Origin: Notolepis coatsorum
Lineage: Eukaryota > Chordata > Actinopteri > Aulopiformes > Paralepididae
Assembly: GCA_963971535.1 (NCBI GenBank)
Contig: OZ020589.1
Location: 95,228,324-95,292,323 of the forward strand
Length of the DNA stretch: 64,000 bases
Direction: 5' to 3'
The notes under the pieces were generated by a model, which had not been told where the DNA came from, ran no database searches, and was given only the letters and a program-made list of their open reading frames with translations. The translations under genes were made by a program, and so were the position numbers. Numbering within the stretch: the first letter of the stretch is position 1; each line of letters begins with the position of its first letter. Shown in pieces: positions 5,824-62,574 of this stretch.

Positions 5824-5890
5824 TTACCACGGCGGCGACATGGGCTGCGGGTTCTGGAGGTATGACATCACGACCGCTGAGATGGACAGC
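5824..5890 (-). CDS. wdr83os: wdr83os terminal coding exon 4
   Basis: Acceptor CTTTCAG at 5897-5891. The first base completes the split methionine codon, followed by 21 residues ([13 protein letters not shown] to MSPPW) and TAA at 5826-5824. A longer open frame extends upstream into intron sequence, but only this part matches the family. Confidence 0.95.
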
Positions 5891-6263
5891 CTGAAAGACA
5901 GAGGGGGGAGTTTAGGGGGGCGGTGTGCAGTATTCGTGTAGAGGTAAAAGAGGCGGGACAGTAACCAAAAGGTCACTGGTTCGATCCCCACCGCTGACAG
6001 AAGGGTGTATTCCAGCTGTGAGCTGGTGACTGAAGGGTGGCTGGTATTACTGTACATATATGGTGCCCACGATCCTTGAGTAAGGCACTGAACCCGAAAA
6101 CTGCTCCAGGGGCACTGCACTGCGGGCGACCCTGCGCTTTGAACTCTGATGAAATGCTTATGTGTGGAATGTGGGTATGTGTAACTAGGAGGGATATGAG
6201 GACTGTGCGTGTGTAACCAGGAGGGATATGAGGACTGTGTGTGTAACTAGGAGGGATATGAGG

Positions 6264-6300
<37 letters not shown>

Positions 6301-27300: not shown

Positions 27301-28119
27301 TTACTAGGGATGCCCCGATCGGTATCGGCCGATATTCAGTATAAATATGAGATCTGTGAATTCCGATAATGCTTTATTTTCGCCGATCGATGACACGCGC
27401 GAAAAACATGATCAAATTATCAGCAGAGTTCTAGCTTGCTGTCTTCTCTGAGGCACACACAGCTGCTGCTGCACGCCTTGCCCCTCCCTCTCCCCCTCAC
27501 AGACCCATGTCAACAAATGCTCCGGCAAGAGTCGAGTCGAGTGCAGCTCCTCTTTCAACATAACAAGCATTAAACAAAATGGCCCAGTCGACTATTCACT
27601 TTAGTTTAATGCATGAGGCGTTGTCCAATGTTATCCAGCTACTGATAGCTCCTGATATCAATGTTTGATATCATCAGTTTGGCATTAGTGTTCGCAGTTG
27701 TTGGCTATCGTTGGCTAACTAGCTATCGTTGTTCCGTGAGCTAATACGTTACTGTTTAAAATAACCCAGTCAACTATTCACTTTAGTTTAATACATGAGA
27801 CATTGTCTAACGTTATCTAGCTGGCTAGCTACTGATAGTTAGCAAGTGGAGAAAAACTTGCTACTGCTGTGACTAGCTGCTCTAGTCTACCGGTCACAAG
27901 GTATAGTGAAAAACCATACCGTACAGGGCTGTACACTGCGACGAGATTATCGCAAATTGCCCCTTAATTTGGCCCGTGCGAGTGGTAAATAATATTTGGG
28001 GGCAACCTTGCAAGTAGTGATTTCAACCCTTCATTCGCATTTCACTCCTAAATTAATCCATACAAATTGGATAATTTTTTTTTAAACATTAGCCTACAAC
28101 CAGGGCTGTACAGTGCGAC

Positions 28120-28154
<35 letters not shown>

Positions 28155-28971
28155 TTTATTTGTATAGCACTTTTCATACAGAGGTTGCAGTTCAAAGTGC
28201 TTCACAACAGTAAAAAATACAGGCATAAGCGAGCATAAAAAGATAGACAGGTAGAATCACAGTGTTTCACATTAGGATCTAGCATCCCAATAGGCTCTCC
28301 GCTTACAGTTTTCAGTAACACAAATAGTAAAAATTGTTTAAAATGATTCAGTTTAAAAATAGTCAAAAAATTATAAAATAGAACGGACATAAAAAATACA
28401 GGCATGAGCGAGCATAGCAAGATATGGCAAATCACAGTGTTTCACATTAGGATCTAGCATCCTAATGTTGCGGTGCTATGAAAAAATCTGTCGGCAATGA
28501 ATGAATTTACTGTGATAACCTGTGTGGAAAAAAAGATTTGCGTGTTAAGTGAATCTGGGCCACGCTATATACTTGGTAGTTGTAGTCTATTGTGCGATTA
28601 AATACCATGTCCCGTCTGGTAGAGTCCATACATCCAACACCAAATCCCATAATTCCTAGCGAACCATCTAATGGAAACTGAATGTTGCATCGCCAAAGAA
28701 GAACTTCCTTTCAATACGTTTAAGCCGCTAATTTTGCTCTGCAAGAAGAACGGAGCGGATATCAGTCCATCTTATGACAACCACGTCCGATGTGGAGAGA
28801 TGATAGAGACCATAGCCGATTAAATTAAGTCGGATCTGGCAGTGATGATTGACGGGGACACACTTCTAACGTTGAGCCATGCATTAGGCGAGTAGCCCAC
28901 TATTAGGACGTTTTTCAATACTTAAATAATGTCTACTTAAATTTCCCTCCAGGGATCAATAAAGTATCAAC

Positions 28972-29002
<31 letters not shown>

Positions 29003-32000
29003 ATAATGAGACAATATGCAAATAAGATAATACTAATAATTGTCACGGTTCCCCGTATGAAAGTGGCTTGCAACTTACAGATGCAGCGCTCAAAAATCAA
29101 ACCAATTCTGCTGCTTGTCTGCTGCTTGTCTGCTGCTTGTTGCTGCTTGTGTGCCACTTAAGTCTAGCACTCAGGTGCAGCGTTTCCGTTAGCCGGTAAT
29201 TACCGGTATTTGACCGGCAAAATCTGTTGAAGTCCGACATATTTCATCTCTCCGGTCTTAATGTCCGGTGAAAATAATTCCCTGAGTCTAAGCACAATTT
29301 GATTATTTGAATTGTATTAAAATAGGCTAAAATTAAATAGCCTATGCGATGAACGAAACGATCATTACATTTGTTTCCTCGTTGCTTCTAATAATGACAA
29401 CGACGTTGTCAGCGAGAGCTTAGTGCTGGGTGTGCGAACTTTTGTGAAGCTGCAGAGCCAGAGCAACAGCGGCACAATGCAGTATTCCAGCAGTACTCCA
29501 ATTCAGCCATTTTCAGCCAATGTTGGGTGGGGGGCGCTGCTGTGCGGTTCCCAGAAAAGAGCCAATGACAGCTAAATCAGCGCCATACTCTTTGCAAATA
29601 AGTCGTTGCGAGGTGGAGAGAGTCGTCACGCAAACCACAATAATGTTGCCGTCTCTCTGCTTTCTCAGTTCTTCGCTTGATATAATTAATACAAATGTCC
29701 AATATAACGGAATTCGTTAGCTCATAAAAATGTGATTATAACAGACTGCTGTTTAGTGTCGGACCGACTGCCCACATACGCGGTCTATTTTATTTCAAGT
29801 CAGCAGCAGCACGGAGTATCGAGGGACTTATTTTATTTGGAATATATTAATGACTGTATACGCAAAAGTAGCCTAGTTTTAAGTAATAATATTATAAATC
29901 TACATGCCTTGAGGATGACATTCTTTATATAGCCTGCCTATCAATTGTTTTAAAGCTCAATAAACTATGACCGGAATTAATCTCATTTGTCCGGTAGATT
30001 GAAATCTTGCAGGTCACGGAGACCGGCAACAATTTTTTCTAACGGAAACCCTGCTCAGGTGTTCATTTTCGGGGGGCTGGTGGCTGGGCCAAAACTGTGA
30101 ACAAAGGGGGGGTACTTAACTTAAGTGCTTCCCCAGGGAAGGGGTCGGGGGCTACTGCCCTCAGACCACCAAGATTATTTTTATATGGGCAGTCTGACTT
30201 GGGGTACTGACCATATATTAGTGTTGCAATGCATGGTAAGTAAACAGTAAAAAAAGCTAAGAAATCTGATGGAGCTGGGACATTTGGGACAAATAAAAAT
30301 GTAAGATGAAAATCTCCCCAGCCTGTGGGGAGGCAGTGGAGGTGTGAAATCTGGCCCGGTCTAGAACAATAGGAGTCACAAAATCAGTTTGGAGTGGAGT
30401 GGTGGAGGAGTGGTAGAGGCGCAGTAGAGGTTTGATTTCTCAGCGCTGTATCTGTACTGCTGGTAAAATCACTGTTTATTTCTCGTTTTGCATAGTATTA
30501 TATTCCTCTTCTATAAACAATCAAAGTCCTACCGTAAGAGCCTCATACGGGTCAATTAAACCTTTTTGATTAGAGTCTTTCCTTCGAGCTAAGTTGAACT
30601 GAACATTTCACTGTCAAAAGCGCAAACTTAAAGGTTGCGTCGCAACACGGTTTTCAAAATAAAGGTCACATATACATATACCGTAGTAGGCCTCTACATT
30701 TTTATAAAAAATCCCGGATATACATAAACATTAATTGGCATAGATCTCTATAAACAGCCCAACACATTGATCACTTTAGGCACACACTGAAACCAGTAAC
30801 ATCACAAATATGAAGCAGGTAATTACCCATAAAAATAATAAACCTTTCATGGGGTTATTTACAATAATAATCATTCATTTTATTTATAAAGCACTTTTCA
30901 TTGTGAAACAAAGGTATGCAGAGTTTCTTGTCCTCCTGATGCAATGGTGTGTGTGTGTTGTGATGATCTCATTCAAGGAGCACTACAAGCGCGCACACAC
31001 ACAGTTTGTTATTTTTGTTCTATTAGTGATTTACACACTTTCTCAGTTGGTTCATTATAAAAGATACAAACCTGAAAACAAACGCACTTAAATGTTAAAT
31101 AAAAGGACCACAGTAATGAGGCACATCTTTTTTTACACTATAATGGTAAAATGGTTATTAAAAGATTTGACCCTAAAAAATATTCTGTGGCCCTAAATTT
31201 CTCATTTAGGGGCAACTGTGCCCCTAGTGAAAAAGCTTAGCGTACAGCCCTGCAGCCTCCCAGGAATTACCCTAGACCGCTCTAAAACCATACTTATATT
31301 CACCACGGTATAAAATGGGAACGTATGGATGGAAAAATTATCTCTTTTTTGCATCTTGACCGGAGAAACTCAGTGTCAAATGACCATAGTATTGGATCCA
31401 TAGCTATAATATAGAATATAGTTATAGCTCTACAAACAAGGTGAAGGACTCCATTAGTTTAATGCTGGCACTGAATAGATGGGCCCCAGAAACAACGTGG
31501 CAGCCAATATGTTAAGTTAAAACTACTCTAGGTGAAAGTGAAAACTAAAAATAGCTGCTGTCCGCACAGACGTGTTCCGTTTATAATGTCGGTTATGGGC
31601 TCTGACCTGCAAAAATTTACTAAATTAGTTGTATTTCTATAGAAAGAAAAAACATACACCGATGTACTTGGCGGATGAACAGAAATGAACAGACACCAAC
31701 ACACGTGCACAAAAGAAGCTATGAAACTCACATGAAGCTGCTCATCATCTGTTTGGTGTCCTCAGAGCTTCGGGAGTTGGCGAAGCTGATGAAGGAACAG
31801 TAGACTGCAATCCACGCGCACCACTTCAACTGGAAGAAGACGAAAGGATCATGGTCACTGGTGAACTCTGGGCAATGTTAGGAGAAGGTAATGATACGCT
31901 TCAATATAAAACTAAATACTCTGTATGATAGCATGTAGAATAATGCTGTATATACCGTATACATATATTTTAGGGGTGTAACGGTACACAGAAGCCACGG

Positions 32001-35000: not shown

Positions 35001-35034
35001 ACAACCTCTGTATGAAAAGTGCTATACAAATAAA

Positions 35035-35109
<75 letters not shown>

Positions 35110-36256: not shown

Positions 36257-37015
36257 ATTAAATCGCAATGTCCTATTGGAATACTCGTTTTAAAAGATAA
36301 ATCCAGTGACAGTCAAATAGCTGACAGGAGTTAACGCATTGAATGGACGGGACGGGACTGGGTGGCGTCACTTCCGTTTGGGACGATCTGCATTTCAAAA
36401 TAAAAGCGAAAGGGCCGTTTTGCGTTTGCAACGTGAATAGTAAGAAATTATTCAACTTTTATTTTGAAATTAATATTTGACCCCAGTATGCATCGCGTAA
36501 TAACGGAAGTGCATCAAACAAAACACGCCGGAGTAGAAGCAATAGAAGTTATTATGAATGAAACTGGTGGAACTGGATAGCTAGCTTGATCAAAACACAA
36601 ACACGACTGAAAATGATCATGACGACAGACCATTGAAACAAAATTAGCTAAACGTTTCAGGTAACGTTAACGTTCGCAACTACGAGTTAGGAAAGTACTA
36701 ACGTTAGTATTACTCACATCACATGTGTTAGCTAGCTAACGTTAGCGAGTTGCCAGTTAAACTGAATATCTGAACTGTTAGGAGGAGGTGGGATCGAAAT
36801 CGAATCCCACCATAACCTTCTTTCTCGTGTCTCCCCTACTATACTCCCATTCTCAGTCTATACTGCCCTATCAGCCCTAATATAATCAAATCTTAACGTC
36901 TGAAGCAAAAACACTTAAATAAGTGGACTGCCAAGTGCCATGCACTTTAAAACAAATCATACTCTGACGTGCTGCGACTGTCCTGCATCTATCTACAGGT
37001 CGAAGGACTGTTGCA
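36257..37015. promoter_or_regulatory. Bidirectional promoter region of wdr83os and wdr83
   Basis: These 759 bp separate the two divergent start codons. ACTTCCG at 36370-36376 and CGGAAGT at 36504-36510 are ETS-type motifs in opposite orientations, common in TATA-less bidirectional housekeeping promoters. I saw no convincing TATA box near either motif. Near the right edge, CTATCTACAG ending at 36998 could be a splice acceptor, making 36999-37015 the 5' UTR part of the first coding exon of wdr83, with a non-coding exon further upstream. Transcription starts are inferred. Confidence 0.65.
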
Positions 37016-37118
37016 ATGTCGTTTCCCCAGCCCAAACCCCAGGTTCCCCAGCTGCCACAGTACCTGCTCAGAACCATAGACTGTCAGCAGGGGGCTGTCA
37101 GAGCTGTACGTTTCAATG
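37016..37118 (+). CDS. wdr83: wdr83 coding exon 1
   Basis: Starts MSFPQPKPQ and ends in GAVRAVRFN plus one base. The donor GTAAGA follows at 37119. The methionine is placed by the family's conserved proline-rich start (M-x-F-P-x-P-K-P). Confidence 0.94.
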
Positions 37119-40100
37119 GTAAGAGCCACAACACTACACTCGTCACGTGCATTGCAACTAATCAAATTGATTGATTGAAAATTGTATTAACAGATTGCAG
37201 AATGGGTACATTATGGGGTTGGGGTAGAACACATAGTAGCTTACTACAAAAACCTAGGGGTCCGCAAAGACGACTTCAAACTGGAAATGGTAACAACAGA
37301 TGAGATACTCAAAAAACTGAGCGCCCTCCAACCTAACAAGGCCACTGGCCATGACAACATCCCCTCCAAATTCCTCAGAGACTCAGCAGCCGCCATCACC
37401 CCAGTCATCACACACATAATAAACCTCTCCATAAAACAGGAACACGTCCCCAAGGACTTCAAAATTGCGAGAGTGACCCCTCTGCACAAAAAGGGCAGTA
37501 AATTAGACCTAGGCAACTACCGCCCTGTTTCTATCCTTACCTCCATCTCGAAAGTCACGGAAAAAAATAGTATACGAACAGGTCGAAAAGTACCTTGCGG
37601 AAAAAAATCCACCTCCAATGTACAGCCCCCCACCCACCCAACCCCACCCCACCTACCCAACCTCCTCCAATGTACAGTTTCTACGTCAAATGTATATACT
37701 CTCTTTTCTGGACTCTTTTTGTATCACAAACAGTACTGTATTTGCAAATCTGGTATGTCATAAATGTATAGATGTAGCAGTACTGTCTATCTGTATGTCG
37801 TGTGTGTCATATATGTTATGATGAATTGAAAATGGGGGACCCTGATGTAAACAAGACGAAAGTCTTTCTCTGGTCTGCATCCCCTTAACAATTGTATGTA
37901 TTGAGCTGTACTGTACCCATTCTGCAATATGTTAATAAAGTTTTCAATCAATCAATCACTAGACAATCAAGATGTATCCATCAGTGGACCAATTGCATGC
38001 TTTTGCAGAGGACAAGAAGCCTTCAGTCGACTCCTTCAGACATTAAGCACCCCCACAGCCCAAATGGAATGATACTAAAAATAAAAATAATAATATTATA
38101 TATATATATTTTTTTTTTAGTCGACTAATAGTCGACTAACGGTACATTTTGGCCAATCATAGTCGACTATCCAAATCCTTACTCGGGGACAGCCCTAGTT
38201 AACAGTCAACACTAATTGCATATGAACTTGTTTATCTTTAACTTTAGACAATTTAACAACTTGATCAGAACAATGGTCTAAAGAATGGGCCTGTCAGCTT
38301 GGTTGATACGAGCATAATCTCTTATTTATATGACACATGGGCAGTCTCAAAGCGCTGGTGCCTTTATTTGATACAACAAGTATAGTTTGCAGTTTAAGTA
38401 GTTAACTACACATCAAAGTAGAAGGAACGTAAGTAATTAAGTTAGCAAATTTGAAATTAGTTGAACCACCAGCAACCTACTGCTAAATGTACTGAAGCTA
38501 CTCCCCAACACTGTTTATTAATACTATGTACATTATATTAGTAGTGCTGTACTCTATTAAAGAAATTCATAGTTAACTAATAATCATAGTTGTAAAGCCT
38601 TAAAGGGGAATGTCACCCATTTTAAGAATTAACTTCTTCCTGTGCCCCAGGACAGTTTATTGAGTATTTGTGACCACTCTCTCCTAAAGCTCCAATTGGT
38701 GATGTCATTGAGATGTAAAATCTGGGGTTGCTCCACAGACAATGAATTGCATAGGTAGCAAGGACACTATAATGCAATTGCATGAATGTGCAAACAGAAC
38801 TTGGGTAATAATATATGAAACCATTACACATGTGAGCACAACCTAAACTTAAAAATGAATCCTTAATCAGGCGCACAGTCTTCACGTGTGAAGAAGCAGA
38901 AAAGGGAGTTCAGAATCGGAATCAGAAAGGTCTTTATTGCCAAGTAGTTTTCACATACAAGGAATTTGCTTTGGTCGTTTTTGGTGCGACATTAACGGAC
39001 AGACAGATAATAAAATAAAGAGGTGGAGTAAAATAAAATGAAATATGAACTAAGCTAAGCACAATAGAATAGAATTATGAAATAAAATATAGGCCAGGGC
39101 TGTACAACTGTAAATAAAAAGGTGGAATGAAATAAAATGGGATATAAACTAAATTAAATATAGCACAATAGAATATAGTACAATTATAAGTAAAAATAAG
39201 AATAGGCCAGGGCTGTACAACTGGGCAAGATGTGGTCAAGTATACGAATTAGAATAAAAATAACAATACAGTGGGATGGGATCATTAGCAGGGCTGTGCA
39301 AAAAGTATGAACAGTGAAGTAGAACAAGTATGTTTTGATTGTATATACGAGTATATAGTCTGTTAGGGGTGTGTTAACCCTTTGTCGTGTGGCAGTGAAA
39401 GGGTTAACCTTGCAGGTTCTATACAACAAGAGGTGCAAATCCAGAGCCTGCAGGATAATGAAAGACCCTCACCACCCCAATAACAGCCTGTTCCAGCTGC
39501 TGAGGTCAGGCAGACGCCTGCGAACCCCAGCTACTAGGACAGAGAGGCTTAGGCTCAGCTTCTTCCCCCAGGCCATCAGAGTCCTGAACAATGAACATTG
39601 AGTAACACTGTAACACTTTAGCATGAGCGGGCACACACACAGGCCGCACGCACCCCACTTATTGCCAAAAGGAAAGGCCACTTTAAATTAGTATTAGCAA
39701 CAGTAACAGTGTATTGCACTACTATTACTACTACTGTTAACTGTTAACTGTTACCCGTTATTGCACAAATGTATTGTTACCTGCTACCTGTTATTGCACA
39801 ATTTTATTGCACACATTTTTGTATTGGATTCTATTATATGTTGTACCATTGCACATCGTTGCGGGCAAGACCACCCGCATTTCATTGTATATCCGTATGC
39901 CGTGACAAATAAAACTCTTGTCTCTTGTCTTGTCTTCTGTAGTGTGGTTGTGAAAGGGTTAACCCTTTGGTAGTGTAGGTAGTGAAATGGTTAACCTTCT
40001 GTAGTGTGGTTGTGAAATGGTTAAGTGAAGTGTCTCTGGCCAATGAGACGTGTGCTATGTCTGTCCCAGCGGACGGAAACTACCTGCTGTCCTGCGGCAG

Positions 40101-43100
40101 CGACAAGTCCTTGAAGCTGTGGAGTGTGAGCAGAGGGACCCTGCTGAAGACATACAGTGGCCATGGATACGAGGTCCTGGATGCCGATAGGTCAGACCCT
40201 TTTTTTGCTTTGTATTCTCTACAACTTATTGTGAAGACTAAGCTACTGTCGTGCCTTAACTCATTGACCGCCAGGGATTAGCCTTATCCTGTGGTACTGG
40301 TAGTATTGCCAAGCTGTAAACGATGAGAGTTAGTCACCTTGTTTGTACAGCTAAATCTATATTATAGCCATGGATACAATACTATAGTCATTTGACATTG
40401 AGTTTCTTCCAGTCAAGATGCAAGAAATAGATAATTTTTCCATCCATATGTTCGCGTGTTATACCGTGGTGAATATAAGTATGGTTTTAGAGTGGTCTAG
40501 GGTAATTCATGAAATGCTTAGTTATGGCAGTATACGTCGATTCCATTGTAGACGTTGCCATTTCCTTCCTGAACCCGCTATTGTTCCAGAATCAAATCCA
40601 CATAGGTATTATGTTCATTGTTCCATCATGAATGCATGAAGGTGGGGGGGGGGGGGGGGGGGTGTAGTGTCTGATTATTTGATTGTCAGTAACGGCATTT
40701 GCATTGATTGAACACGAAAAACGGTTATCAGCCCGATCAGTATGAAAGCATTGCAGGATCAAGCTAAAATTTACGTCAAATTGCCCTTACCTGTGGCCGG
40801 GAGTAATCCAAAAAGAATATTCCAATTGTTTGATCGCCATCCGGTATATCCAATGTCCATTTGCTGGACGCCATAATTCACCACAACATATGGATTGGAG
40901 ATATCTGATGCGCTTCAATGTAACCGGCAGAACTGTTCGTATTGCCCGACAAGGAAAAATGTAACACGAGACCTGGGGCCGTCCCACAGAGAAAGATATA
41001 TGGGTAGAAAGTAGGGGTGGAATGGTACGCATTCGAACCATACACCGTTCGGTACGACCCCCACGGTTCGGGGCATGTGTGTATTGTTTGGTTAGGCTAG
41101 GCTAACGTTACGTTAGCCACGAGCTAACTAACTTTAGCCGCGAGCTAACTAACGTTAGCTGCAAGCTAACCGTAGAAACGCTCACAGCGAACTGAGCGAA
41201 GTGACTCCACGACACCAGAGTGGGGAAGGGGGGTATATTGACGAGGCTTGACAACAGAGGTTCAACGATAACTGTTTGTGTTCAATGATGAGCCAGGAGA
41301 CTAGAGCGTGTGTGTCAACTGTGCGTCTATTTACATCCTGGTCCCTGCTGGGACGTACCAACTCCACACACCACTGTTGGGGGGTTTATATAACATTCCC
41401 CATTCCCTTGTAACATCTCCTTTTTTTTTTTTAGATAACAGTTACTTACAACATTCCTTAGTGCAAATCATTATTAATACAAGAAACCCCATAAACGTCC
41501 TTATTTAAAACCCTAATCATATTTTCTGTGACTTTTCCTTTTTGATAAGAAAGTCTAGTGCTGGTTGAGCATATGCATACTTTATGTTGATGGCCTTTGT
41601 CTATAATGTGGCCACAAAAATGGAAAGGTTTAATTATTTTGTTTGTTTGCACCAAGTTAATACTTTGACAAATGTTGCCTACATTTTTCAGTCAGTTCGG
41701 TCTTTGTGTGCCAAACATTATTTAAGGCAAACCGTGTAAACCTTTTTTTTTACCAAATAAATGAGAAGCATGTTTAAATCTGCAATGCCTCCCCTCTTGC
41801 TGTACCAAAATCTCTCCTAGCTCTAACCCGGTCACTGTCAAAATAATGTGCCTGATGTCAAACTGCCTCATTCTTTCAGTTTTTGCATGACTATGTCCTT
41901 GAGAATAACTGAAAAGTTAATTTTTAGGCTATATATCCTATGCTGATGTATGGTATTTTTGGAGTGTTAAATTCTTTTAAATAAAAAACGGATATCGAAC
42001 TGAACCGAAAACCGTGACGCCAAGACCGTGATACGAACCGAACCGTAGATTTTGTGAACCGTTCCACCCCTAGTAGAAAGGGTGCTTGATACCGCCGTCT
42101 AGCGTGATGCGGCCGGTATTGCACCTAGGCATTCTCAATGCGATTCTCAATGTTAACCTTGAGTCAGTGGGCCTGTAATGAATATAACGGTCGGATTGAG
42201 AAGCGTGAATTGCTCCCGGTGCATGATGTGGCGGATTATGTTGGCGACACGATCGACACCAATACTGGGACTCGCGATCAGATAATTGGAATATTCTTTT
42301 TGGGGTACATCCTAGTGAAGGTAAGGCCTATATGGTATCAATCCTGCTGTAGGCGGGTGGGGTGGGGGGGGGGGGATAACTGTACATTGGATTATCGACA
42401 AAACCTTACTTGGTCCCAAGAAGAGGGTCTCGTGTATTATTGGGTTAGGACATTTACTGTACATTGGAGGGGGTTGGGTTAGGACATTTACAGGGGCCAG
42501 TTTCGAATTGCAGTCTCCTGTAGGTGCTCTTTGAGAGTGGTTTTGAAAGTGGGTAGTGATTCACATTCCTTTACAGCTGTGGGTAGGGCGTTCCACATTG
42601 ATGTGGCATAATTGCAAAATGTGTTTAGTCCCTTGTTTGAGCCGAATCTGGGTTTAACATAATTTGTGGAGCTCCCTCTGGTGTTGTGGTCGTGGTATTC
42701 ACTGACCTTTGGGAAGTATTTTGACATGTACTTGGGTACCTTAGTCGTGTAGTGTATCTTGTAGACCAGGCCCATTGCAAGTTGCTGTGTGCCGTTGGTG
42801 ACAATCAAAGCATCAAAAAACGACCCCCCCCCCCCCACACACACTTTCATGCATTCATGATGAAACATAATACCGATAATATAGATGTGATTTCAAAATA
42901 GTAGCGTGTACAGACGAGAAATGGCAATTCTTTTTGAATTGCACGTATTGCTGCATAGCGTCGTTTTCTGGGATTAGACAGGATTACTCTAAAACTATAG
43001 TCATATTCACCACGGTATAAAACGGGAATGTATGGATGAAATTTTTATTTCTTTAACACATATTGAACGATAGATAGTCGATGTCAAATGGGCCATAGTA

Positions 43101-43286
43101 TTGTATCCATAGCTATAATATAGAATATAGTTATAGCCCTGCAAACACTGCCATGTATTCCTATATTTTAGAGCTTCAGCCGTTTAACAACACATCACGC
43201 ATATCGCTGTGGCGTCCAAAGTGTTAAGCTATTCAAATAATAAATGCATAAAAAAAATATACAAAAGTAAAAAAAATTTAAATCAT

Positions 43287-43317
<31 letters not shown>

Positions 43318-46300
43318 GTATATAAATATATGTACCTATATACTAAGTGCCTGGCGCGGGTGTTGAGTGGTTTCGCTGCCCAGGGGAAGACGGAAGGTAA
43401 TGATGCTTGTTTTGTCCTCGATGTCTTCCATAGTTCCTTCGACAACAGCCTGCTGTGCTCCTGCAGCGCGGACAAGACGGTCATCCTGTGGGACGTGGCC
43501 ACGGGACAGGTCACGCGCAAACTCAGAGGTCACGCCGGGGTGAGAAGAACAACAAAACTCAATTTCCTTTATTTACCAAGATTCCGTCCTAAATGCAAAA
43601 CGAGGCTAGGGCGGGAAGCAAGCTTGATATATAACGAAGGTTTGGTCACCAATGCAGAGATAAAATGATGACTGGAGCTTTCTGACTGAGACCAGTATTC
43701 TGAAATATGTTGCTTGGTCAATAGAGTCCTGGTCCCAGCGTTGTCCCGTCTGAATAGAGTCCTGGTTCCAGTGTTGTCCTGTAGGCGCTGAATAGAGTCC
43801 TGGTCCCAGCGTTGTCCTGTAGGCACTGAATGGAGTCCTGGTCCCAGCCTTGGCCATGTTGAGCGCTGAATAGAGTCCTGGGCCCTCATTCATCAACGTG
43901 TTCTACGCACAGATCTGTGCTTACCCTGTGCGTACGATCATTTCTAAGCAAAGAGTGGGATTCATCAATTTCGATTTGAACTTGACTCCGTGCTTACATC
44001 TACGCACAGGTCAGACCAGGCGTACCTCGCGCCCAGTGGTAGAATATCGTTACTACGCATAAGCACTCCTCAGTCCTGCATTAGTTTCAAGGCGGAAATA
44101 AGCTTCCGTGCATTAGTGTTCAACTTCTGTATGACCCGTAATTCATTATAGTTCATTGTAAAATAGCGACAGTAGTGTAATTATAACGGGCTCACACGCG
44201 AACAAGAGGTTGGCCTGCTTGTTTGGCACGGGGGGGCAGACGCAAAACACCAACCTCCAAACGCGATTAGATATTGTTTCAAATAAAAAGCAAATTATTT
44301 TGTGTGTCATGATTCCAAATAAGATTGGTCACGAAATGCTTTCTACTTCAATTTGTTGGTTAGAATAGATGACCTCTGTTGAAACTTCACTGAGACTAAC
44401 AGTCTATTTGTGAGCTCCCGCACAGATGTGATGATAATAATAATAATAATAATAATAGCTTCATTTTATATAGCGCCTTTCAAGAGACCCAAGGTCGCTT
44501 TACATAGATAGGGGGGGGGGGGAATAACAAAGTAACAAACATAGTGGACAGACACACAACATATATATATGATGATGGAATTCATTCAAGATCCTCTCCA
44601 CCCTCGGGTCTTTGCCACCGCGGCACGGTCCATCGTGATATTGGAGATGGATCGACCAATAGACTGTTACTGTAGCTGTCAAAGCTCCATCACAAATGCA
44701 GTTATGTGAATAGAAAGGGATTCCACTCAGTCAATGTTGCGATGCGCATTTGCCTGATACATGTTATTGCTGGATGCCGGGAGGAAGGCGATGCTGAATG
44801 TTTTCAATTCATTAAATAAAACGGATACTTTTTGCAAGGGTTTACTGACTGTCATACAAATGATCAACCAACTACATACTGTAACTTTTCAGTGCACGTT
44901 CTTATTTACATTGTGACAACAGCCTTGTGAGTTCCTGCAGTGACCCGCACACAGACATGATGGAATTCAAGTTCATGTTTGTATTGATCACATATAGGCA
45001 GGCTACACATGGCGTATCTGCTACATCATACATGGCAGTAAGATTCATTGTTCTTGTATAGCTCTCGTATTATTGTTTATGTAGGCTACCCAATACTGAC
45101 ATCAAAATGGATTGTAGTATGCCTCTAGAAATCATATGCAGCAGGTAGAAAATTGACGGGAGATCCATCGCGATTTGGAATCAAATTGAGGAGAACTTTA
45201 ATCCCTGGGTATTAATCAAACAACACGGGAAAAGGCAGTCATATTCCAGCGCGGTCTTTATTAGCCGACAACAAAATAGATGCCTCTAAAAATCATATAG
45301 CCAATCGAACACAACTAATAAAGGCATTCATATTACAGCACGGTTATAATGACACACAACCAACGCCAAACAGTGGTCAACGAACGGTCTTTATTAGTAT
45401 TTTGAGCTGTCCAGGCAGAATTGCAGCAATGGTCTTAGGGAGCCGTTGATATCTGACATCACCGTTTACAAATCCGCCTTTTATTTATCCCATAATACGC
45501 GATAGTGTCTTCTTGGTTCGACAGCAGTGAATTCTCTGTGGAGTTTCTCAGAGTACCGCTCGGGTCAGTCCATTATTTCACATCACATGGGGGGTGTTTC
45601 CTCACTTTCATGACCATATATGGATAATCATGCACGAGCATTGACGGTAGAACAAAGTTCTACGGAGGAGCGTAGAGCCTGCGTACGCACCGTGTGATGA
45701 ATCCCGACTTCCCTGTGCGTACACTAGTTCTACATTCCGTGCTTACGTGTGGAAATAGAACATATTCTACGTCCACGTTGATGAATGAGGGCCCTGGTCC
45801 TGGTTGAAAAAACCCTCAGCTCGGAACTAGGCAAAATCTGCACCTGGCTCACTGACAACAAACTATCATTACACCTGGGTAAAACAGAGTCCATTCTCTT
45901 CTGTTCAAATAACAAACTCAGCAAGGCCGACGGCTTCTCAGTTCCAGTGGGTGACAATATTGTCACAAGGAAAGATGAAAATACATACCTAGGTTCCATC
46001 CTAGAGGCTAATCTTTCCTGTGATAAAATGGCATCCAATGTAATAAAAAAAAAAAAAGTCAACCAACGAACTAGATTATTGTACCGGATCTCCTCTCTGG
46101 TAAACAAGAATACCCTGAAGACTCTGGCAGGAGCACACTCATTCAAGGGTACTACGACTATGCTTGCACCTCATTGTACCAAAGCACCTCAAAACAAAAC
46201 AAACTGGTCAGACTACTGCTTGACCTTACTCCTAGAACCCACCTCACCCCTGCTCACTTTGACAACCTAGGATGGCTTAGAGTAGACGACAGAGTACAGC

Positions 46301-58300: not shown

Positions 58301-61300
58301 CGGAGATGTGGACTCCCAGGAATTTGAAGATGGAGACGCACTCGACCTCCGTCCCGTTGATGTGGCTTGTGCGCTGGCTCTGGTCTTCCTGAAGTCCATG
58401 ATGAGCTGCTTGGTTTTCTTGGTCTTGAGGGCCAGGTTATTGTCACGCCGCCAGGTGCTGGACCTCCTCCCTATAGGCCGACTCACCGGTGTGTTGTCTG
58501 CAAACTTAATAATGGTGTTGGTGCCATGAATAGGAGTGATGGACAGGACAGATCTGCACTGTGTAGTTTTGGAATGAAAAAATTACCTCTACAATAAATG
58601 GTTATTTATGCAATTTGTTTCTGATCTCAACACAATTCAGAATTAAAGCTAAAAGGTGGTGGGAGGAGGGTAGGTACACCACAGCCGAACAGATCATTGA
58701 GAACCACTGATGTAGAGGACAATCCTCACTAAAATAATCTGTGGTGCAGCTTTAACACTTTGGTTGCCACTTGTTAACATGGTCAAATTTGGTTGGATGC
58801 CAGCACCCACTTCAATGATAGCATTGTGAACGCATAATCTCTGTCTTAAATTATGGCTATGTGTCTAATCTGCCCGTCGTTTATCAATGACTTGTTTGCA
58901 GTCAACATTGTCGAAACGGATTGTTTTTTAATCGGTTCATTTCCGTTTTATAGCATTTTGAAAAGCCCTCGTTTTCTTGAAAGTTTCAGGAAAATATAAA
59001 GATTCCGTGATAAACGGCATTTACTGGAATATTCTGGAATACACAAAAAACGTTGTAATTTTTCGGCCTATTTATGAATAGTTTTCAAATAAACCCTAGA
59101 TTATCGATAGTATATGTGTACTTATGCACGCTATATAAGCGATCTGAAAAATATATTCTCGTTTTCCTGATCAGCGCGCACACACACACACACACACACA
59201 CAGGGCACACGCTGATATATACTGTAGGTCAAAACAGATCCAATTACCCCAAGACTGGTAAAATAAATTGCTTACCTCAGATCAGATGTTCTCCAAAAAG
59301 ATTATTCCAATTCCTGATCGCCATTCCAAATATCGATCGTGTTTATTGATTCAGCGTTGGGTACTATAAATATGTATTCCACGTTGTTTTCCGGCTCGGC
59401 GATCACTTGGGTCTCTTCAGATGCCGCGCCGTAAAAGTAAAATGAGGAAACTGCCCCCCCCCCCCTTCATCAGTCTAATCTAATGGGGTGCAGTTACACA
59501 GGGAGAGACGATAGGGGGCGGTATTTTCCCAATTGAGCTCAGAGAGAGTCTGCAACACTAGCGTGAGGCTCGATTGATGAAATATGAATTCAAATCGCTA
59601 ATAAATAAAAAAATACGACAAACAAACGCTATATAGCGTTGCTGGCATTCAACTGGCGGCATGAACTAACGACAAAACGCGTCCGTGGCCCTCAAAGTGT
59701 TAAGGGAAGGAGATAATTCATGTTCCGTTCCTGACCTCTCTGTTCACAGAAAGTCAACTGTGTCCAGTTCAATGAAGAGGCAACCATCATGTTGTCAGGT
59801 GAGTTTCTTCTACTGTTGTAACTTAATAGGTCAGGTTACATGATTCATGTTACTGTAAGTTATAATTCATATATGTTCATATTCATTATTATTTACAGTT
59901 GAAAGCAAGGTTGGAAGAGTGTTTGTTTATTATATTTAGAGATACTATTATTTTTGCATTAGTTATTGCATTAGTTAGTAGAAATACAAGTCTCAGAATG
60001 CCTTGCGCCTAGTAACCTAGTATCCAGCTGTGTCCGATTATATTGATTGAAGTTGCCGACTGAAGAGAGCGTTTTGTGAAGTAGAGAAAAGAATGTAATG
60101 TAACATGCACACTGCACCGGATAACTTCTATATAAAGAAACTTTCGTCTTATAACCCAACGTTTGGACAGTCCATTATTTTGAAGGTAGTTATTCTACAA
60201 CCGTCATTAACTTCACCTTCACGTCAGCGAAGGCTGTTAACCCTCTCCTCGCTCAGCGTTTCCCCTAGGATGGAGTTGTCGTGTAACTTATTTTTACATT
60301 TACATTTTAAGTTCTGTATGACGAAGTCAGCAGGAAGGGTACAACTCTTACAGCTGAGTAACAATGTTCATCAAACAGTGCTGAGACTTGGGTGCTGCAG
60401 TGTTGAGTGCATAGTAGTTAAGACATTAGTATAGTAGGAAGAGTGCATGATAGTATAAGACAGTAAGAAGGTTAGTGTTTTTAGTCGACGGCGAAAGATT
60501 GCTCGGGTTTCTACTATGGTAGTAAGCCATACTGGCCATCGGTATAACTAGTAAGAGTAGGTAAGGGATATATACAGATATAGTTATATATCATCTGGCT
60601 TCGCGTCTCGCTCTGCCTACTGAGATATACCATTATCTCCAGCACCTAGTGTGCTCTGGGAAACAAAACAAATGCACCCACTTGCACGTGACCATGCCAC
60701 TCCCATGCGTGCCTCTATATTACGCCGGAAGTGGTCACGCCTCACCCTTCCTCATTCGTTTCCAACGCGGAAGCAGCTCAGATGCACTTCTTGAACTGGA
60801 GATTGTTATGAAGCGTAAGGAGAAATGAAAAGAAGACACAATGTTGGGAATTCGCCAGAAGTTCGCCAGCCCCCGGAACCTTCTCGGCACGTCCTAACAG
60901 CGTGGCGGTCCTGTCCTGTTTTTTCCTCATCGCATGACAGAGGACCGAGGGACTTCGCGCGACTGTTGGCAGTCGAGCCACGTCGCGCCCAGGTAGGGTC
61001 GGTGGTCTGTTTATCTGTGGCTTCGGCGCCTGGGCCCTGTGCGCCCTTTGAATCTCTATCTTGGCGAGATCTGACATTTCTAATTATTTTCTAATTAGGT
61101 TGTCTACATATTCCCTCGTGTCGATAACTTTTCTCCGGTGTTTGTATTTCTTCTGGGGTCGTTTTCCTTTCGCTTGATCTCGTGTCCATCCTTCCCTTTC
61201 TCTTTTATCATTGAATTGTCACTTTTTATGTTGTTTTCGATATTTTTACTTCCTTTTTCGATGTTCTTTGACCGGGAGCTCTTTTCCATGGCCGCCTACC

Positions 61301-62574
61301 CGAACATCTCAAACCGGAAGGCCGTTGATACTGTATTTAAACTTAAAAAATAATTATACAGGGCGGCCGGGTAGTCTGTATCGAATCCGGCTGCAGTGGT
61401 ACCTCCGGCTTGGTCGGTCGTCCATACTGACACAATTGGCAGTGTCAGCGGGGGGAAAGCTGGTGGGGTGGGTCCTGGTCGTTGTAAACAGCGACTCCTA
61501 CAGGTCGGTCAGGGCGCCTGCACAGCGAGGGAGGGAACTGAGGGAGGTAGTGTGATCCGATCCTCCCACGCGTTACACTTCCCCAGTGAGAGTCCTCGCT
61601 GTCAGGTGAAAAGAGGCTGCTGGCTGTCTCCACATGTATCGGAGGACGCATGTGTTAGACTTCAGGGGTCCCTAGACCGGCAAGTGGGGGGGAAATGCGC
61701 GCAACGACCAGGAAGGGGAGGGGGGAATTGGCATAACGACTAAATTGGGATGGGAGAAAAATACAGAAAAATAGGAAGAGAAAAAGTAGATAAAAAAAAT
61801 TATACAGAGAGAAGCTTCAGCAAGTACAAATGCTGCTGACCGACAAAAGAGAATCCCTCACTGAGGAAAACACAAAACGCCTAACCATGTATCACAATGG
61901 TGATGTCAGCCAGAGATGGGGAGAAGCATGGACCTTTTAAATGACATCTCTTTGAACGAAATCACATTATACATTTTCTTTCTGATTTCTTTTAAAGAAA
62001 TTATTATTTTGTATTATTTAACTATTTAATTATTATTTAGTTATTGCACTGCACTGCACTGGCAGTTGAACAGCATTGCACTGAATTGAAGAAATGTTTT
62101 ACTCATAACTGAACATTGAACTGCACTGGCACTGTTTGCAGATGTAGTTATTAAAGTTAGTTAATATTTTTGTATTGTTTTTTGTTAAATCCAAAGGAAA
62201 GAATATTAAATCAGAGAAATCCGAAAAACTGGAATATTCATATCTGAAAACAGGAAAAGATAAAAACGGATTTCAGAGGGCCCTAATATTTCCATACAAC
62301 TTGCACTGCGCCGATAGTACTTGCACACATAGAGGACGTGGAGTCATGCGAGATGTCCTGTTTACACGGTCGTTCATGGCCGATGCGATGCATAAGAATG
62401 GATGATTTCTTACTTCTTGGGTAATGTGTGTGTGTGTGTGTGCACAGGGTCTATAGACGGGTCCGTGCGCTGCTGGGACATCAGGTCCAGGAGGTTTGAG
62501 GCCATCCAGATTCTAGATGAGGCTCAGGACGGCGTCAGCAGCCTGAAGGTGGCTCAGCACGAGCTGCTTACCGG
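37016..62574 (+). CDS. wdr83: WDR83 (MORG1) WD40-repeat protein, 5' part (coding exons 1-5)
   Basis: Five exons join in frame: 37016-37118, 40070-40190, 43434-43539, 59750-59798 and 62448-62574. Together they give 506 nt (168 codons plus 2). The human protein is about 315 residues, so roughly half is present and the gene leaves the window on the right. The protein begins MSFPQPKPQVPQLPQYLL and carries WD40 signatures: GAVRAVRFN, CGSDKSLKLWSV, SADKTVILWDVATGQ, GHAG, VNCVQFNEEATIMLSG and SIDGSVRCWDIRSRR. From the family: WDR83/MORG1 is a seven-bladed propeller that scaffolds ERK signalling components, binds the prolyl hydroxylase PHD3 and is found in spliceosomal complexes. The introns (2.95, 3.24, 16.2 and 2.65 kb) are rich in transposons. 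Orthology is very likely from recalled sequence and from the wdr83os neighbour. Confidence 0.95.
37168..37960 (+). pseudogene. L2-like LINE with inverted 3'-end piece, in wdr83 intron 1
   Basis: 37168-37215 is an inverted copy of the L2 3' end (TTGATTGATTGAAAATTG and GATTGCAGAATGGGTAC). From about 37220 the plus strand encodes RT: ILKKLSALQPNKATGHDNIP, KDFKIARVTPLHKKGSKLDL, NYRPVSILTSISKVTEK. An internal deletion joins this to the 3' UTR (37700-37960). Confidence 0.8.
38040..38205. mobile_element. Right end of a hAT-like element
   Basis: TAGTCGACTAATAGTCGACT, then GGGGACAGCCCTAGTTAAC, is typical of a hAT right end. The TTAAGCACCCCCACAGCCC block also occurs at about 57964 within another element. 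No left end seen. Confidence 0.45.
38911..39370 (-). mobile_element. LINE 3' UTR (minus strand)
   Basis: AGAATCGGAATCAGAAAGGT followed by CTTTATTGCCAAGTAG. On the minus strand this is a LINE 3' end (AATAAAGACC, then GATTC repeats). A 60-bp block ending AGGCCAGGGCTGTACAACTG is repeated at about 39090 and 39203. Confidence 0.7.
39371..40030 (+). repeat. AAAGGGTTAACC repeat interrupted by a LINE 3' fragment
   Basis: Units with GTAGTGTGGTTGTGAAA and GGTTAACC flank a CR1/L2/Rex-like 3' end (39413-39940: [35 protein letters not shown], then UTR). That 3' end is nearly identical to 18185-18782. The LINE evidently inserted in the tandem repeat in wdr83 intron 1. Confidence 0.8.
40070..40190 (+). CDS. 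wdr83: wdr83 coding exon 2
   Basis: Acceptor CTGTCCCAG, then DGNYLLSCGSDKSLKLW and GTLLKTYSGHGYEVLD, the first complete WD blade. It ends with AG of a serine codon and donor GTCAGA. Phase agrees with exons 1 and 3. Confidence 0.95.
40330..40640 (-). repeat. Inverted copy of the dispersed repeat at 31264
   Basis: TACCGTGGTGAATATAAGTA and ATATTATAGCCATGG are the reverse complement of the block at 31264-31440. A G-run follows at 40645-40662. It lies in wdr83 intron 2. Confidence 0.6.
41012..42072. mobile_element. hAT element, 1,061 bp
   Basis: Ends TAGGGGTGGAA and TTCCACCCCTA flanked by GTAGAAAG (41004-41011 and 42073-42080). CCACGGTTCGG and CGAACCGTAG motifs fill the subterminal regions. A shortened relative has its left end near 31975. 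Confidence 0.93.
42356..42788 (-). pseudogene. L2-like LINE C-terminal fragment (minus), arm of an inverted repeat
   Basis: Encodes QLAMGLVYKIHYTTKVPKYM, SKYFPKVSEYHDHNTRGSST and LKEHLQETAIRNWPL, then a UTR of the same unusual type as 46302-46737. The two arms are inverted and nearly identical, and flank wdr83 exon 3. Confidence 0.88.
43434..43539 (+). CDS. wdr83: wdr83 coding exon 3
   Basis: Acceptor TTCCATAG, then SFDNSLLCSCSADKTVILWD and VTRKLRGHAG. It ends on a codon boundary before donor GTGAGA. It lies between inverted L2 copies at 42356-42788 and 46302-46737. Confidence 0.95.
43720..43880. repeat. Short tandem repeat, GAATAGAGTCCTGGTCCCAG
   Basis: Four to five units of about 35-40 bp with the core GTCCTGGTCCCAGCGTTGTC. 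The Harbinger-like element starts in the last unit. Confidence 0.85.
43881..45792. mobile_element. Harbinger-like non-autonomous element, about 1.9 kb
   Basis: Terminal inverted repeats GGCCCTCATTCATCAACG and CGTTGATGAATGAGGGCC, with CTG on both outer sides as a 3-bp duplication. Subterminal motifs TGTGCGTAC and TTCTAC recur inverted. An inner minus-strand LINE-like 3' tail (AATAAT repeats then ATATAGCGCCTTTCAAG) lies at 44434-44510. No transposase recognised. Confidence 0.8.
45793..46740 (+). pseudogene. L2-like LINE RT C-terminus
   Basis: Reads LCTWLTDNKLSLHLGKTESI, ILFCSNNKLSKADGF, ENTYLGSILEANLSCDKM, then in another frame LVRLLLDLTPRTHLTPAHFD and YHDHNTRGSSTNHVKPRFGS to IRNWPL (stop at 46594). 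An A-run at about 46045 disrupts the frame. The right part (46302-46737) is the inverted partner of 42356-42788. Confidence 0.88.
46817..46832. repeat. L1 target-site duplication, left copy
   Basis: AATATACTTTATTTCT, identical to 53968-53983. It lies in the 3' tail of an older minus-strand L2-like LINE, whose other half continues at 53984-54130. Confidence 0.93.
47373..51143 (-). CDS. L1 ORF2 protein (endonuclease / reverse transcriptase), 1,256 aa
   Basis: It makes the target-site nick and reverse transcribes the element RNA at the target. Endonuclease: IWNAGGLN (N10), SETH (E39), YAPN, GGDFNACWD (D141, N143) and SDH (D228, H229). RT: KAPGWDGIPPEVY at about 468, [22 protein letters not shown] with D598, [18 protein letters not shown] and LYADD with D700/D701. 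The C-terminal zinc-knuckle-like region CTLC to HMYWDC lies around residue 1130-1150. All catalytic residues I expect are present with no stop or frameshift. The start MAKLNILIWN matches the homologous ORF2 start at 10712. Confidence 0.95.
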   Translation of the reverse strand: MAKLNILIWNAGGLNAPHKRASVLWLLKRRNIDLALLSETHLLVGDVSRLANRQYHVISSSSADDKTKGVVIVTRRNLDIKILDVWSDTEGRITIAKVEFLHRKMAIIALYAPNTFDSAFYNTITKNMLELNGYALMVGGDFNACWDAEMDRSGPSETSDQKRASKALRMWAKDTGLTDLWRLCNPTLKDYSHLSARHKSFSRIDYAFASPNMFDSFDVSLVPLALSDHKGIFLTATFGRLSARAPRWRFNSTLLKNDDFRSEFRSKLAEFLQINVGTVEDPRVLWNALKGFIRGHVTLFASNLRKSRSKKLEGLESLYADLYASLQTDYNERLNTQRKIVKKEINSILKQQSEFLIHRTRQNYYFHGSRPSHLLAMKIRSNDNFSDIPSIRTSQGAVTTDSKKINDTFKEFYSQLYSSEGNLDDSKFESFIGGLEIPHISEEEAKELGRPITLVELRETIVEMQRGKAPGWDGIPPEVYLAFWDQLGPLMLDMINYAIEQGEFSRDVNMALISLLLKKDKDPNDCGSYRPLSLLGADLKVFAKVLARRLQRFMSVLVHCDQTGFIPGRLAADNLRRLLHVIDNSKDNTTPSTVLSLDAMKAFDRLEWSYLWKVLEVMGLGKSFIHMIKVLYASPSAMILTGKNCSTLFPVSRSSRQGCPLSPGLFALSLEPLAQFIRQSEDIVPIMVNNTPHKIALYADDLLIFMDDPSRSATKLLRIIDNFGKLSGFKINWNKSACLPLNELAKAVRLPADIPIVEHFKYLGIEIFPTLNQTTKYNFTGTYDKIRQDLDRWSSLPNSLQARASIIKMNILPRINFISSMLPLPPPIDHWRKVQSMVSKFVWNNKRPRIKRATTQRRKQDGGLAIPDFKLYFWSFSLRPLMCWLDPVEAVSWRSLEAAAVSPLRLQDVVYSTVSISKCRLRYGPIITHVIQTWRNVQRSCGVKCPWHLDSPIFNNQQLLVGHKPVNIPQWQRRGVHTLEDIYDKNGLRAFQDLREFYDLPGESFFLYLQLRSALRAHGVPWAQALHPHPFLRLIVDRTTSRGFVSDFYTLLIQSTYKNLSLDTIWRVDIPELDPEFDWDDVWANVALSSRNPNHQQINFNYIHRTYLTPRKLYAMGLITDSRCTLCSQKATGTYMHMYWDCPPVARFWRSITDKLSDLCGLTIPFSAVTLLLNDITTLPASVQLKRVVLAGVTAAKKLIAMRWKEPEKLTMINWSLTLLDVIYLEISTARVIGVGQAGIDLWFAAAEKVKTAVCG
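51144..52883 (-). repeat. L1 inter-ORF region with diverged internal repeats
   Basis: 1,740 bp without an ORF. Blocks such as AATTCAAAACAAAATTAA (about 51711 and 52187), AGTTAGTCCAAGGTAG (about 52018 and 52210, weaker at 51750) and CCTGTTATCATA (about 51976 and 52371) recur. This gives three or four imperfect tandem units. Confidence 0.75.
52884..53792 (-). CDS. L1 ORF1 protein (RNA-binding chaperone), 302 aa
   Basis: In L1 elements ORF1p coats the element RNA as a trimer and acts as a nucleic-acid chaperone. Visible here are a short variable N-terminus, then a long alpha-helical/coiled-coil segment (about residues 45-140, with ESALLAKQAEVNKLQSAMEE). From about residue 142, RRHNVRIVGVPE marks the RRM domain. 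A C-terminal domain follows (LGDHKVAIFEDFTPEVQAHR, LRPTLFAPAKLSV). The length fits fish L1 ORF1. No internal stop. The start is the first ATG of the open frame, 175 bases from the element's 5' end. Confidence 0.9.
   Translation of the reverse strand: MAGVETRAMKELGTTPAPPSMAAPSPAVGELSEAVLLVMTKLHADSETRIAEAQKKVLADFCISLRREISEEIRLAVVPLTDKMEAIHAASSANANELAMLTTEVSSQCEKMAGLESALLAKQAEVNKLQSAMEEMQSRDRRHNVRIVGVPETSGEGRLSETVPELLQKILGTDVLPMPPICESAYRAGRFSPGVNKEPRPIIVKLNRLQQREIIMRSARTRRGNLRLGDHKVAIFEDFTPEVQAHRAEYKVVLTKLWKLGLRPTLFAPAKLSVLEKVGGQRLFWSLARAKEYLAETPESVA
53968..54130 (-). mobile_element. L2-like LINE 3' tail (minus) with right L1 target duplication
   Basis: AATATACTTTATTTCT (53968-53983), then ATAGCTCTTCTCATACAAGA and CCCAAAGTACTTCACAGGC, the 3' end of an L2-like LINE seen in reverse. 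Its outer TAATAATA tail is on the far side of the L1 insertion. Confidence 0.8.
54730..54868 (+). mobile_element. L2-like 3' UTR fragment
   Basis: Same block as 35765-35908 (GAATTGAAAATGGGGGACCC to TTAATAAAACTTTCATTC), inserted just inside the left inverted repeat of the surrounding DNA transposon. Confidence 0.85.
54880..55245 (-). mobile_element. Inverted L2-like 3' end, split by a SINE
   Basis: GATTGATTGAATGAACA and CATATTGCAGAATG (54887-54917) continue after the SINE as GGTAGAATACAGTACAGC, ACACAATTGTTAA (55202-55239). This is the reverse of the common L2 3' UTR. Confidence 0.85.
54918..55185 (+). mobile_element. tRNA-derived SINE, 5'-truncated, with 16-bp duplication
   Basis: Body shared with 26583-27053 and 61361-61797 (CAGGTGAAAAGAAGCGG, GTGTCGGAGGAAGCACGTGA, TTGGGATGGGAGAAAAT). 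Flanked by AACATATTGCAGAATG at 54902-54917 and 55186-55201. Confidence 0.93.
55766..57027. other. Non-coding intron sequence, probably LINE UTR
   Basis: Rich in TATATG/GTATAG and partly resembling the 3' UTR of the minus-strand LINE whose RT piece lies at 58125-58530. A block with AAGGAACACACAAAAACAGA is duplicated at about 56318 and 56361. No gene seen, although one minus-strand frame (56157-56666) is open for 169 codons. Confidence 0.4.
57028..58124. mobile_element. hAT-like element with nested fold-back MITE
   Basis: Ends CAGTGTTTCCC and GGGAAACACTG. GCAGTT occurs on both sides, but a clean 8-bp duplication is not clear. It splits a minus-strand LINE and contains the element at 57295-57616. 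Confidence 0.7.
57295..57616. mobile_element. Fold-back MITE, 322 bp, TA duplication
   Basis: CACTGCAAAAAAAAG and a matching TTTTTTTTTTGCAGTG end, bordered by TA on both sides. Nearly the whole element is a palindrome (CTTGTATTTGGTACAATAAG against CTTATTGTACCAAATACAAG, and TTGGTCAATTTAATCTT inverted about the centre near 57455). Confidence 0.92.
58125..58530 (-). pseudogene. CR1/L2/Rex-like LINE RT fragment (minus)
   Basis: Across frames the minus strand gives [39 protein letters not shown] and LVKKAHQCLFFLRRLRKVHL, the region after the RT catalytic motif. Frameshifted and interrupted on its 3' side by the hAT at 57028-58124. Confidence 0.85.
58756..59699. mobile_element. piggyBac-like non-autonomous element, 944 bp (inverted copy)
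   Basis: TTAA at 58752-58755 and 59700-59703 with ends CACTTTGGTTGCC and CCCTCAAAGTG. The interior is the reverse complement of 33320-34260 (for example AATCGGTTCATTTCCGTTTT and GGATTGTTTTTTAATCGG). It ends 46 bp before the wdr83 exon 4. Confidence 0.9.
59750..59798 (+). CDS. wdr83: wdr83 coding exon 4
   Basis: A 49-bp micro-exon. Acceptor TGTTCACAG, then KVNCVQFNEEATIMLS plus one base, and donor GTGAGT. Only 46 bp of intron separate it from the TTAA and end of a piggyBac-like insertion. Confidence 0.93.
60290..60515 (-). mobile_element. L2-like LINE 3' end (minus)
   Basis: TTACATTTACATTTTAAGTT, GGTACAACTCTTACAGCTGA and TTTTTAGTCGACGGCGAAAG match the minus-strand L2 fragment at 15590-15830. 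It lies in wdr83 intron 4. Confidence 0.75.
60516..61360. other. Unassigned intron sequence
   Basis: No domain or repeat family recognised. Short open frames around 60778-61094 occur on both strands of a GC-rich patch and show no known protein. Confidence 0.35.
61361..61797 (+). mobile_element. tRNA-derived SINE with target duplication
   Basis: Starts GGGCGGCCGGGTAG, includes TCGAATCCGG (B-box part) and the family body, and ends AATTGGGATGGGAGAAAA plus an A-rich tail. Flanked by AATTATACA at 61352-61360 and 61798-61806. Part of the tRNA-like head is deleted. It lies in wdr83 intron 4. Confidence 0.9.
62448..62574 (+). CDS. wdr83: wdr83 coding exon 5
   Basis: Acceptor GTGCACAG preceded by a TG run. 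Encodes SIDGSVRCWDIRSRR and LDEAQDGVSSLKVAQHELL, and ends in GG before donor GTCAGT. The donor is part of the first unit of a 45-bp minisatellite, and a hAT element starts 18 bp beyond the last exon base. Confidence 0.94.

Follow-up and report, generated by a model that had tools for sequence, protein, structure and literature searches.

Head-to-head wdr83os and wdr83 genes in the repeat-rich DNA of Notolepis coatsorum and a minisatellite multiplying the splice donor of wdr83 exon 8

Nine coding exons recognised in a stretch of the Notolepis coatsorum genome are, with a probability of about 95%, parts of two intact, conserved nuclear genes, wdr83os and wdr83, which lie head to head and are each apparently single-copy. 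The exon finding is right and, in itself, ordinary; the remaining interest of the locus is connected with a splice-donor array where wdr83 exon 8 ends. From the viewpoint of annotation, two conserved genes have stayed intact despite the dispersal of their exons across stretches of repeat-rich DNA of 30 and 49 kb.

The window, that is, the whole stretch of 64,000 nucleotides under study, corresponds to C13:95228324-95292323 in the species' own assembly (3,421,551,600 bases, or 3.42 Gb, in 4,787 contigs). Flanks of 100 kb were added on either side, so that 264 kb were analysed overall. Coordinates in the flanks are given in window-frame numbering, in which position 1 is the first letter of the window (Table 1).

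Table 1. Coordinates of the coding exons, the gap between the start codons and the exon 8 array
Feature	Position	Strand	Remarks
wdr83os coding exon 4	5824..5890	-	67 nt, closes on TAA (stop included)
wdr83os coding exon 3	31732..31829	-	98 nt; own-genome PF03669 match 4.4e-11
wdr83os coding exon 2	35526..35631	-	106 nt; own-genome PF03669 match 3.6e-7
wdr83os coding exon 1	36207..36256	-	50 nt, begins ATG; donor GCG/gtgagt
Putative shared promoter, gap between wdr83os and wdr83 start codons	36257..37015	.	759 bp
Possible wdr83 5'-UTR intron	36661..36998	+	CAG/GTAACG ... CTATCTACAG; suggested by donor- and acceptor-like letters
wdr83 coding exon 1	37016..37118	+	103 nt, begins ATG
wdr83 coding exon 2	40070..40190	+	121 nt
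wdr83 coding exon 3	43434..43539	+	106 nt
wdr83 coding exon 4	59750..59798	+	49 nt
wdr83 coding exon 5	62448..62574	+	127 nt; last exon within window
wdr83 exon 6	69937-70004 (L011)		past window, flank
wdr83 exon 7	82618-82726 (L012)		past window, flank
wdr83 exon 8	83752-83866 (L012)		past window, flank
wdr83 exon 9	85384-85548 (L013)		past window, flank
Exon 8 array	83838-84577 (L012:9838-10000 and L013:1-577; C13:95312161-95312900)		20 kb past window

The exons were searched for by tblastn with typed human WDR83OS and WDR83 queries, which agree by eye with PDB sequences over residues 1-106 and 1-167, respectively. Four colinear wdr83os matches on the minus strand and five colinear wdr83 matches on the plus strand were found in the window. 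All seven introns with both ends inside it are GT-AG, and wdr83 exon 5 closes on a GT donor. The initial annotation had described nine exons with canonical splice sites and consistent phase; its outer borders, 5824 and 62574, proved to be exact, the phases fit, and the order and strands were reproduced. Its label 'micro-exons' was too strong, as the nine exons measure 49-127 nt. Chance origin of the matches was ruled out by shuffled queries: the weakest true exon match among the nine scored 28.9 bits. Among 200 shuffles of each protein, one of WDR83OS and none of WDR83 reached at least this score in the window, and no shuffle gave two such matches. The best scores with reversed proteins were 21.2 bits (WDR83OS) and 24.3 bits (WDR83).

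The joined exons of wdr83os (321 nt) encode 106 amino acids followed by a stop codon and contain no internal stop, and 92 of the 106 residues are identical to those of the human protein in an ungapped comparison, which bears out the earlier reading of a complete 106-residue Asterix encoded by four exons. The product matched the PF03669 ASTER profile with 157.4 bits (cut-off 22.7) over profile positions 3-95 of 96, and Asterix was its sole PDB match at E<=1 (2.6e-61). The introns measure 575, 3696 and 25841 bp, and AATAAA is present from 5535 on the minus strand. The human protein is a subunit of the ER PAT complex together with CCDC47, according to an excerpt of PMC9630114. The gene wdr83os encodes Asterix, which according to the literature pairs with CCDC47 in this complex, part of a translocon for multipass membrane proteins. 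A separate search for Asterix relatives in viral contigs gave three pattern matches, zero of which was confirmed.

Exons 1-5 of wdr83 join to 506 nt (168 codons and 2 nt) with zero internal stops, and 123 of 168 residues are identical to human WDR83 without gaps. The whole frame of nine exons encodes 320 amino acids and ends with a stop codon, with ATTAAA at 85566, so the 168 codons in the window amount to the 'first half of WDR83' announced earlier. Its introns are of 2951, 3243, 16210, 2649, 7362, 12613, 1025 and 1517 bp. In a PDB search with the full product, WDR83 was the lone chain below 1e-100 (5.7e-159). When the first half was used, two designed repeat proteins (Tako8) scored 389.7 and 327.1 bits versus 318.4 bits for WDR83, but this lead is the sum of several overlapping stretches, and in the best single stretch WDR83 reached 279.4 versus 77.8 bits. 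Judged by its sequence, wdr83 is the orthologue of WDR83, its best full-length match among WD40 proteins of known structure and clearly separated from the others. No NCBIfam match was obtained with the two proteins submitted, and a search of the window for structured RNAs and tRNAs gave none at threshold. From start to stop codon, wdr83os spans 30.4 kb and wdr83 48.5 kb, and all 13 coding exons and all 11 introns of both genes are intact, with complete frames, GT-AG borders, and start and stop codons.

The species' own genome was searched for other copies. The ASTER family gave two matches, both being exons 2 and 3 of this wdr83os. WDR83 gave 41 matches, seven of which lie at C13:95.26-95.31 Mb with 48-76% identity, and the other 34 show 25-35%. 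Some WDR83 paralogues surpassed the wdr83 exons in E-value because these exons are short; the separation was therefore made by identity. This six-frame search recovered two of four wdr83os and seven of nine wdr83 exons, so that a copy of the shortest exons could escape it; wdr83os exons 1 and 4 and two wdr83 exons were missed, most likely because of their shortness. It follows from these matches that neither gene resembles a decayed copy.

Other genes are represented in this genome by apparently intronless copies. Tandem WD40 frames without apparent introns, mostly of 501-527 aa and spaced by 5.3-5.5 kb where regular, were found at C29:40.416-40.422 Mb and on C3221 (together L004-L010), and at C21:28.866-28.872 Mb. 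The one compared with PDB (L006) proved to be the splicing factor Pleiotropic regulator 1 (2.9e-256). An open intronless copy of the splicing factor gene yju2 (334 aa; C21:30259413-30260348, L035) with 70% identity over 260 residues to the typed human sequence is situated 1.4 Mb from the C21 WD40 copies.

In wdr83, a 33-bp minisatellite with 22.5 copies and 95% match extends across the last part of exon 8 and its donor. The array begins 29 nt inside the exon, so that the splice donor is included, and it holds 22 GTAAG donors, 20 of which share the nine bases GAG/GTAAGA. This donor agrees in seven of nine positions with the typed donor consensus, and the other 10 donors of both genes agree in 5-8. 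The steps from donor to donor are of 33 bp; the exceptions measure 36 bp (one step) and 31 bp (three steps). All four odd-length units come after the eighth, a placement expected by chance in about 1 of 6 cases by our own arithmetic, and selection on the first eight units is not claimed. Exon 8 is the sole coding exon among the 13 that overlaps any of 215 tandem-repeat rows in the 264 kb. When exon 8 with two units was searched against the own genome, simple repeats and very common words being skipped, 11 of 11 matches fell at C13:95312075-95312900, so the array was most likely formed at this site.

The predicted consequences depend on the donor chosen. With donors 1-8, the frame and the native C-terminus are retained, and products of 320, 331 and so on up to 397 aa are predicted; with donors 9-22, a stop follows residue 345, before the native C-terminus. 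In test genes with duplicated donors, downstream copies are often preferred, and a preference of this kind would shift the outcome towards longer products or mRNA decay. Tentatively, and with somewhat more doubt than belief, we suggest that the spliceosome may select from 22 near-identical donors spaced by 31-36 bp and use several of the first eight, which would yield a series of WDR83 proteins of 320-397 aa with zero to seven extra 11-residue blade strands (VRHVYCWDLVE), and that later donors would give mRNAs with premature stops. If so, the length of the array would set the output of WDR83 and vary between individuals. A literature search for competing identical donors gave no papers. The array is a natural counterpart of laboratory experiments on duplicated donors. 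Located in a conserved coding gene, it tests splice-site choice by cells in an unusual natural way, and RNA-seq of this species could read the result. Tandem duplications of AGGT are a known model of intron gain, as stated in an excerpt of PMC4974935. Units of the present array have no pyrimidine tract, as judged by eye, and new introns inside it would therefore seem unlikely.

Two other explanations concern the state of the genes themselves. The exons could be remnants of a decayed duplicate, the intact genes being located elsewhere, and a very large genome of 3.42 Gb, in which seemingly intronless copies of two other genes occur, leaves room for such an origin. Over 1,284 nt, the joined coding exons show neither a stop nor a frameshift, 11 of 11 introns are GT-AG, and the genome searches gave no better copy of wdr83os or wdr83, including any closer intact copy of the kind that the initial annotation had named as its refutation. 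At the sensitivity of these searches, the open frames, splice borders and genome matches lead us to reject a decayed duplicate, which is extremely improbable. It could also be supposed that wdr83 gives mainly aberrant mRNA through the donor array and is on the way to loss of function, as 14 of the 22 donors would bring a stop before the native C-terminus. The native exon 8 donor is intact, however, eight of the 22 donors leave both frame and C-terminus unchanged, and all nine wdr83 exons are without stops or frameshifts, so we regard this fate as quite improbable, if less so than decayed duplication. Two intact genes thus remain our reading of the locus.

The genes are adjacent and divergent, wdr83os on the minus and wdr83 on the plus strand, just as had been proposed at the outset. 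The same head-to-head order would hold in other vertebrates, as the gene name, WDR83 opposite strand, suggests. The name 'ccdx130', used in the teleost comparison cited next, presumably stands for ccdc130. In an excerpt of PMC4057122, 'ccdx130', gtf3a, pspn, wdr83 and wdr83os are called 'highly conserved' in position and direction among the teleosts compared, and the region is given as inverted in the platyfish scaffold. In our assembly, six matches with 62-100% identity to a typed query sequence place ccdc130 at C13:95.783-95.796 Mb, on the contig that carries wdr83 and 0.47 Mb past that gene; together with the published synteny, known from that excerpt, this agrees with a conserved neighbourhood. 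DHPS and WDR83 overlap at their 3' ends as a cis-natural antisense pair in pig and human, as reported in an excerpt of PMC4124853. A search for DHPS in the 264 kb, which extend to 78 kb beyond the wdr83 stop, was without a match at E<=0.5; all six dhps family matches in the genome lie on C32 (C32:79.478-79.499 Mb, L038), away from wdr83, so that the 3' overlap is absent here.

The gap between the start codons is rich in CpG. The observed/expected ratio is 1.10 compared to a window mean of 0.64, and its best 500-bp segment reaches 1.47, ranking third among 1271 overlapping ones. TATAAA is absent from these 759 bp, in-frame stops precede the ATG of both genes, and no match to the gap sequence was found elsewhere in the 264 kb. 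Two ETS-like sites, ACTTCCG at 36370 and CGGAAGT at 36504, are located in the gap; they represent one motif in two orientations among 15 patterns tried, and this motif occurs four times in the window and 16 times across 264 kb. Finding two of the four sites in the gap has a probability of about 0.001 by our own arithmetic, before correcting for the 15 patterns. A second ETS-type pattern, CCGGAAG, gave zero sites in the gap. As support for a promoter, the ETS-like sites are only suggestive. GABPA is an ETS factor. It is among the factors more often tied to bidirectional promoters, and a bidirectional pair is defined as divergent genes with transcription starts less than 1 kb apart, as given in an excerpt of PMC11676430; here, the 759 bp are the distance between start codons.

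The CpG-rich gap fits a putative shared promoter, and both genes would start transcription inside this TATAAA-free DNA with its two ETS-like sites. Proximity, CpG content and these sites are only suggestive as pointers to co-regulation, which had been proposed as ancient and which we consider plausible but unproven. The opposite possibility is that two independent promoters are close by chance and that linkage was also kept by chance. It gains from the post hoc character of the motif support and from the dhps linkage of pig and human, which is missing here and indicates that neighbours do change. Against it stand the shortness of the gap, just 759 bp where the genes themselves extend over 30 and 49 kb, and the neighbourhood conserved in teleosts, and in our opinion independent promoters are rather unlikely. 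With regard to evolution, only 759 bp separate wdr83os and wdr83, yet their largest introns measure 26 and 16 kb.

The locus would have grown by transposons and minisatellites within introns. In wdr83 intron 3, a LINE at 47373-51227 on the minus strand has an open frame of 1284 codons that encodes endonuclease and reverse transcriptase domains. A frame of 313 codons without a Pfam match lies upstream of it (52884-53825, minus strand), and the LINE is possibly a young full-length copy. Intron 3 of wdr83os carries two inverted LINE copies, 7477-9907 and 12215-14631, which are 94.9% identical over 2.4 kb, are separated by 2.3 kb and could form a large RNA hairpin. A 32-bp minisatellite with 35.5 copies (6178-7282) starts 288 bp from wdr83os exon 4.

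Compared with known systems, wdr83 and wdr83os adjoin here as in the teleost ccdc130-gtf3a-pspn-wdr83-wdr83os block, with ccdc130 linked at 0.47 Mb. The DHPS-WDR83 cis-antisense pair (excerpt of PMC4124853) involves the same wdr83 gene, but its convergent overlapping neighbour is not present in this locus. In relation to WDR83OS/Asterix (PF03669; PDB 7tm3, 7tut), the product has the same length of 106 aa and differs at one residue in the C-terminal end, whereas the gene covers 30.4 kb and its 25.8-kb third intron contains LINEs. Residues 1-312 of the wdr83 product align to 1-312 of WDR83/MORG1 (PDB 9s2f chain WD) in a single stretch, and 226 of 315 positions are identical without gaps; in contrast to the human protein of 315 aa, the product has 320 aa and an acidic C-terminal end, and the exon 8 donor is multiplied by a minisatellite. 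A donor-multiplying minisatellite is a tandem repeat that spans an exon end and carries the donor in its units, and both features were found here. A paper of 1995, cited in PMC2915984, reportedly, by its title, dealt with a minisatellite providing multiple splice donors, so this type of array is already known. The wdr83 exon 8 array is a further case, which likewise multiplies splice donors. It does so in another gene, with a unit of 33 bp and with eight donors in frame, and the coding exon concerned is a conserved WD40 one.
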